This document shows positions 17,831-18,862 of a stretch of 40,529 bases of DNA, piece after piece. The stretch is taken from contig JAJRRF010000124.1 of assembly GCA_024279735.1 (NCBI GenBank), forward strand, positions 1 through 40,529, written 5' to 3'. Both the position numbers and the translations under genes were made by a program. Within the stretch, counting starts at the first letter, position 1, and each line of letters opens with the position of its first letter. This DNA is from Alphaproteobacteria bacterium (lineage in GTDB: Bacteria > Pseudomonadota > Alphaproteobacteria > Rhizobiales > JAJRRF01). The notes beneath the pieces were generated by a model. The model made no database searches. It saw only the letters and a program-made list of their open reading frames with translations, and was not told the DNA's origin.

Positions 17831-17894
17831 ACTGTCATACTGCGCCCTAGAGAAACATCACGGCATGGATACCGCATTTCTGTGGTATGACAGT
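17831..17894. repeat. Palindromic intergenic repeat (REP/RPE-like)
   Basis: 10-bp perfect inverted repeat ACTGTCATAC (17831-17840) / GTATGACAGT (17885-17894) enclosing CGGCATGGATACCG. Confidence 0.6.
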
Positions 17895-17999: not shown

Positions 18000-18862
18000 C
18001 TATGACTTTCCACACTGTTTCTTTGTAATACAATAAATCCGAAACCTAAAATAATCCTGATCAGATTTATCTTTTGATAATGCAATAGCTTTTTTGGTAA
18101 CTCCCCAGCTTGTTTTAGGTGTATTAACTAATTGATAAATAACGATAAAAATAAATCGTTATTTTTAAAACCACTAAAATATGATCATTTTTCCATTAAA
18201 AAACAGGATTTTTAGACTGTATTCCGCTTGAAAACGCGTATTTACGTGAAAAAAGAAGCTGGGGAGTTACCTTTTTTGTACATAACCACGGCCTCATCAT
18301 TTCGGTTTAAGTTATCCAAAATAGTAGCAACCCCTCTATAATGGTCTGGATTTTTAGAATCTAGACCAATCAATTTTCTAAACTCAACCAAAGCCTTCTT
18401 CTTTTTTCCTTGAAACGAATAAACATATGCAATTAAGTTATAAGAAGTGAAATCTTTTGGATTATTATCAATTGCCTTACCGTAATCCTCTATCTTTTTA
18501 CGATAATTCGTTGCATTTTTTTTAATCTGTGCTTTCGTTAATGGAGCTGCCAAGGCTTGGGATATTTTGTAGGTTCCAGCCCGCCACCGATAGATTTCAC
18601 CACGTCGAATCTTTGACAACCCTTTTTGTTCCAACAAAAGATTACAAGATTCAAACGATTCTTTAAAAGAACCATTTTTACACATCGTAGAGGCTCCACG
18701 GTAACACGCAGCCATTGCTTTTTTCTCATCTTTTTCTTCTTTACAGATTTTTGTATCTTTTTTAACCTGTAATTAAGTCAGTCAACCACTGACTTGCCTG
18801 AACTGAGTTGATAGAGACAACCAACATAACAAAAAACTAAGAAGAATTTTAACTGAACCCAT
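18000..18862 (-). pseudogene. TPR-repeat exported protein gene disrupted by a MITE-like insertion and N-terminal frameshifts/stops
   Basis: ORF 18242..18715 is the intact middle; removing 18096-18271 plus one T6 continues in frame to ...AIALSKDKSDQDYFRFRIYCITKKQCGKS* (stop at 18000-18002). Upstream an ATG at 18862 starts a signal-peptide-like sequence separated from the mature region by stops. Confidence 0.75.
18096..18271. mobile_element. MITE-like non-autonomous element, 176 bp
   Basis: 16-bp perfect terminal inverted repeats (18096-18111 and 18256-18271), TTTTTT on both flanks (18090-18095, 18272-18277), AT-rich interior with hairpin AAATAACGAT/ATCGTTATTT, no ORF. Confidence 0.8.

Follow-up and report, generated by a model that had tools for sequence, protein, structure and literature searches.

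The element and its insertion site

The window, i.e. the whole 40,529-nt stretch of DNA analysed, corresponds to contig C175 in an assembly of 308 contigs totalling 3.04 Mb and contains a MITE that cuts a TPR-domain reading frame near its 3' end. The features of the locus are as follows:

18242–18715, minus strand: reading frame with TPR repeats, cut near its 3' end; the final codons (GNSPASFFT and stop) come from the MITE end and the duplication
18097–18270, plus strand: complete MITE copy, 174 bp, with 1 substitution relative to the consensus of 10 copies
18097–18111, plus strand: terminal repeat on the left, GTAACTCCCCAGCTT; the last 15 bp at the right end of an IS66 element have the same sequence
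18248–18270, minus strand: MITE right end GTAACTCCCCAGCTTCTTTTTTC, 23 bp identical to the left end of the IS66 element
18089–18096, strand not applicable: left copy of the target site duplication, CTTTTTTG
18271–18278, strand not applicable: right copy of the duplication, CTTTTTTG, followed by TA (18279–18280) as in the target consensus
18132–18169, strand not applicable: interior A/T-rich inverted repeat with 15-nt arms (87%)

The MITE, with the tips GTAAC...GTTAC and ends written GTAACTCCCCAGCTT...AAGCTGGGGAGTTAC, is shorter than 500 bp and contains neither a transposase gene nor a noteworthy ORF. Its inverted arms (18096–18116 and 18251–18271) match at 95% over 21 nt (20/21, with 15/15 at the tips), and within the window the 15-mer GTAACTCCCCAGCTT is present only at the two MITE ends (0.06 occurrences expected). 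The terminal repeats, as well as an interior lacking an ORF and containing a hairpin, had been described in an earlier note made from the sequence alone, and both descriptions hold, the hairpin being the A/T-rich inverted repeat listed above. The same note gave a length of 176 bp and a 6-bp duplication of T6. Comparison with nine other intact copies instead places the boundary bases at G18097 and C18270, giving 174 bp, and the outer G/C pair at 18096/18271 is part of the 8-bp target duplication, not of the MITE. The single-strand fold of the MITE is far more stable than those of shuffled sequences (z = -5.8), a strength that is mostly due to the terminal repeats. No Rfam family was matched in the window, and no promoter or terminator pattern was found within the MITE.

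The reading frame (18715–18242) terminates inside the MITE as ...YKKGNSPASFFT and a stop codon. When the MITE and one 8-mer are removed, it continues as ...YKKAIALSKDKSDQDYFRFRIYCITKKQCGKS before its stop, the insertion having exchanged the last 29 residues for 9 and a stop. The empty-site reading proposed previously was thereby reproduced, since the number of bases removed is the same (174 + 8 = 176 + 6). The placement of the element inside a TPR gene is correct as regards the 3' end, but the 5' part has two stops in frame ahead of the body. Given these stops upstream of the TPR body, the gene may have been disrupted separately from the MITE and was possibly an older pseudogene already. On the minus strand of 18716–18860, a signal-peptide-like start (MGSVKILLSFLLCWLSLSTQ...) is split from the TPR body by the two stops and adjoins a short inverted repeat, AAGTCAGT...ACTGACTT. 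No orthologue of the TPR gene was found in 199 genomes of the order, the gene itself aside; the hits were to generic TPR sequences, with identities no higher than about 40%, the best outside its own genome being 38% over 80 aa. A dispersed palindromic repeat unrelated to the MITE, CACGGCATGGATACCGC...GCGGTATGACAGT, is located at 17861–17875 of the window and near loci L005, L006, L034, L044 and L087.

Copies in the genome

With up to one mismatch allowed, the 15-bp end has 162 matches genome-wide, while the reversed control pattern has none. With 61 occurrences of the MITE left end, the genome has a minimum of 61 copies, roughly one every 50 kb. The multicopy nature supposed in the earlier note is thus established, and a lack of further copies, named there as the outcome that would tell against the element, is not what was found. 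Ten copies are complete, each exactly 174 bp long with 1–4 substitutions from the consensus, and they share 96.6–98.9% pairwise identity (mean 98%). Nine of them are flanked by perfect, mutually different 8-bp duplications. The tenth (L008, G000:C234:13375-13548) is intact but has no target duplication, which suggests that copies recombined or that neighbouring sequence was deleted. Pairing of left and right MITE ends by matching 8-mers yielded 21 pairs (10 within single contigs and 11 across contigs), compared with a mean of 1.7 and a maximum of 5 for shuffled controls and 0 for an offset control. This pattern of near-identical copies, distinct duplications and joinable ends indicates a recent transposition burst, and the 174-bp unit is a real, recently spread non-autonomous transposon.

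Many contigs break off about 140 bp into a MITE copy, which makes the MITE a main cause of the fragmentation of the assembly. Most copies adjoin only short open frames (median at the copy boundaries, 49 aa), suggesting that they occupy intergenic sites. Two kinds of variant were observed. A second subfamily with the same ends (L033 and L091, on contigs C9 and C254 of G000) is represented by two ends with differing flanks and is 81% identical to the main MITE over 116 bp. A 127-bp deletion variant (L185, G000:C199:11004-11130), flanked by A8, has lost 47 bp between two ATTTTT repeats, and one of its ends is mutated to GCAAC.

Target preference

The A+T content of the duplicated 8-mer, taken over 118 ends, is 76%, falling to 59% further out. 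The central six positions are all A/T at 48% of the MITE ends and 64% of the IS ends (background 5–8%), and TA lies just outside the 8-mer at 37% and 29%, respectively (background 7–8%). The target consensus is about TA-nWWWWWWn-TA, of which CTTTTTTG in the window is one instance. A T6 duplication with a strict poly-T target was rejected because other copies carry unrelated 8-mers; the poly-T target suggested earlier is one case of a more general A/T-rich 8-mer flanked by TA.

A partner IS66 element

The same 15-bp end comes, at 18 contig ends, after the C-terminal coding sequence of an IS66 transposase (...AERDLRMMKVREKISGSFRTREGAKTFATIRSVISSAKKQKLNILEVL...), of which the C-terminal part alone is present and matches PF03050 with 42 bits (cut-off 23.1). 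One of these right-end copies has an in-frame stop in the transposase. IS left ends were found neither by single duplication 8-mers nor among the sampled contig starts; sampling of the matches to the 15-bp end yielded ten, each starting with GTAACTCCCCAGCTTCTTTTTTC. This sequence is followed by a short leader and then by a reading frame that begins 61 bp from the tip (MADDTKILHRIIAAQKILIEDQGKQL), of which the 26 aa in view are too short for homology to show. Six left/right pairs share a common 8-bp duplication, and the tips are GTAA. The partner IS likely has a single ORF.

The MITE right end and the IS left end agree at 23/23 bp, the MITE left end and the IS right end at 15/15 bp. Past these 23 and 15 bp the similarity stops sharply, and the interior of the MITE has no match in the IS sequence available (the outer 140–210 bp and one internal fragment). 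All of 123 sampled ends belonged to the MITE, to IS66 or to five minor or rearranged variants, and no other IS class carrying this end was found among them. The search that the earlier note called for, that of an IS with the same ends, thus succeeded for the ends (18 right and 10 left) but recovered no full-length IS, the interior being missing. Neither this interior nor an intact transposase gene was seen in the assembly, probably because the collapsed contig falls below the assembly size limit; no contig shorter than about 2.5 kb was seen.

In L079, one IS copy is inserted within a MITE copy. In L189 (the first 160 bases of G000:C206), an IS66 left end has two head-to-tail copies of GTAACTCCCCAGCTTCTTTTTTC, an arrangement that fits insertion of an IS into CTTTTTTC, subterminal in another copy, since 15 bp plus the 8-bp duplication make up the 23 bp. 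Several other high-copy repeats also terminate contigs (contig starts L110–L149), among them an IS30-like transposase end, ...GTTGAAGGGGCG, and the further ends ...CAATTGCCCTG, ...AACTGTCCAAACTATTG and ...GGTAATCAGG, so this genome has a very high load of insertion sequences.

Relationship to known elements

The mobilising family, which the earlier note left unassigned, is almost certainly IS66, ISBst12-like. The nearest plasmid relative of the transposase (55% identity) is encoded on plasmid pOA238_160 of Octadecabacter arcticus 238, in an element of 1605 bp with ends GTAACTCCCAAGC and the 8-bp duplication TGTTTTTA. ISGst1 of Geobacillus has ends GTAACTATTCAGCC and the duplication AAAAGAAC, and ISDge4, an active element of the ISBst12 group, has GTAACTGCTCAGCA / GTGACTACTCAGCA ends and an 8-bp duplication (PMC12898284). 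The end found here matches those of the three elements at 10–12 of 14 positions. Like members of the ISBst12 group (ISDge4, ISGst1 and ISBst12), the MITE has GTAACT..CAGC-type ends, an 8-bp duplication and, in the linked autonomous element, a DDE_Tnp_IS66 transposase; unlike them, it lacks a transposase gene and has an interior unrelated to the IS sequence available. It resembles MITECca01 of the Cardinium symbiont cOegib, a short IS-linked MITE that is very abundant in an IS-rich genome alongside its parent IS (PMC9769881), but that is a different element, with 169 copies and IS982 as parent (PMC9769881), compared with the 61 or more found here. Chunjie, QMITE2, MITEPsy3 and Correia are likewise short, with terminal inverted repeats, target duplications and tens of copies (PMC10969869, PMC6053426), but differ, in a comparison by description and not by sequence, in length and mobilising family.

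Neither the 397 other genomes searched from the order nor the 387 sampled from the class (about 780 in total) contained a genuine match to the MITE. The weak matches (2 among the order genomes and 12 in the class sample) are taken as chance, since they span about 20–60 bp and have no terminal repeats. Nothing was found in 72,556 plasmids, 50,697 phages or IMG/VR. No IS66-linked MITE was found in the papers searched (subscription literature and ISfinder lying outside this scope), and IS66 goes unmentioned in a review of MITEs in prokaryotes from 2024. The MITE is a new family, although its general kind is well known.

Mobilisation and origin of the MITE

From the directly observed ends, copy number, 8-bp duplications and end identity with the IS66 element, we conclude with high confidence that the MITE is moved by an IS66-family, ISBst12-type element of the same genome, whose ends match. 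As a non-autonomous DNA transposon, it would be acted on in trans by the IS66 transposase, which would recognise the common end GTAACTCCCCAGCTT, together with CTTTTTTC on the side of the MITE right end and IS left end; the 174-bp unit would then be inserted at an A/T-rich 8-bp target, which becomes duplicated. Counting against this explanation are the absent IS interior, the one in-frame stop and the single copy in ten (L008) that has no duplication. A different, unseen IS with ends similar by chance could account for the missing IS interior and for a MITE interior unrelated to the visible IS ends, but it is very improbable: a single IS of this genome has ends identical to those of the MITE at 23/23 and 15/15 bp, the two elements agree in duplication length and target preference, and the 123 sampled ends included no other IS class with this end. 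It is scarcely credible that the unit is instead a repeat with a cellular role (REP/ERIC-like, a terminator or an RNA) spread by selection for function. Its strong terminal and inner hairpins and the short open frames (median 49 aa) bordering most copies, suggestive of intergenic sites, would suit such a role, whereas perfect, different 8-bp duplications and IS-shared ends demonstrate transposition, and neither an Rfam match nor a promoter or terminator pattern inside the element was found. A later host role for the MITE may nevertheless exist. The mover would almost certainly be the IS66 transposase and no other, and this transposase appears to be active now or to have been so recently.

How the MITE arose from, or alongside, its IS66 partner is a separate matter. 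The likeness to the partner IS breaks off abruptly after 23 and 15 bp, suggesting that the MITE interior was not inherited from that IS and that the MITE may not descend from it directly. Internal deletion is the usual assumption for MITEs (PMC3189936), and the exact 23-bp match at one end agrees with a simple internal-deletion derivative of the same IS66 element whose interior has been altered beyond recognition. We consider such an origin unlikely, though by no means negligible: adjacent terminal sequence should have persisted, yet the likeness stops at 23/15 bp in copies that are 98% alike, and the L033/L091 subfamily (81% identical) also resembles the MITE and not the IS. In the outer 140–210 bp and the one internal IS fragment compared, no interior sequence next to both ends was shared with the parent. 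We put forward only tentatively, at slightly less than even confidence, that this is the first MITE described for the IS66 family (ISBst12 group) and that its interior comes from elsewhere than the partner IS.

In this genome, the MITE accounts for many of the contig breaks in the assembly. MITEs are common, yet the papers searched yielded none tied to IS66, a family whose transposition has been described as insufficiently characterised (PMC12898284). If the interior is foreign, the IS66 transposase would need only about 15–23 bp per end, and such MITEs could form by capture of foreign DNA between two ends and not by internal deletion. Being a minimal substrate that has been highly successful, and one whose ends and target rule are known, the MITE would make end recognition by IS66 elements directly testable.
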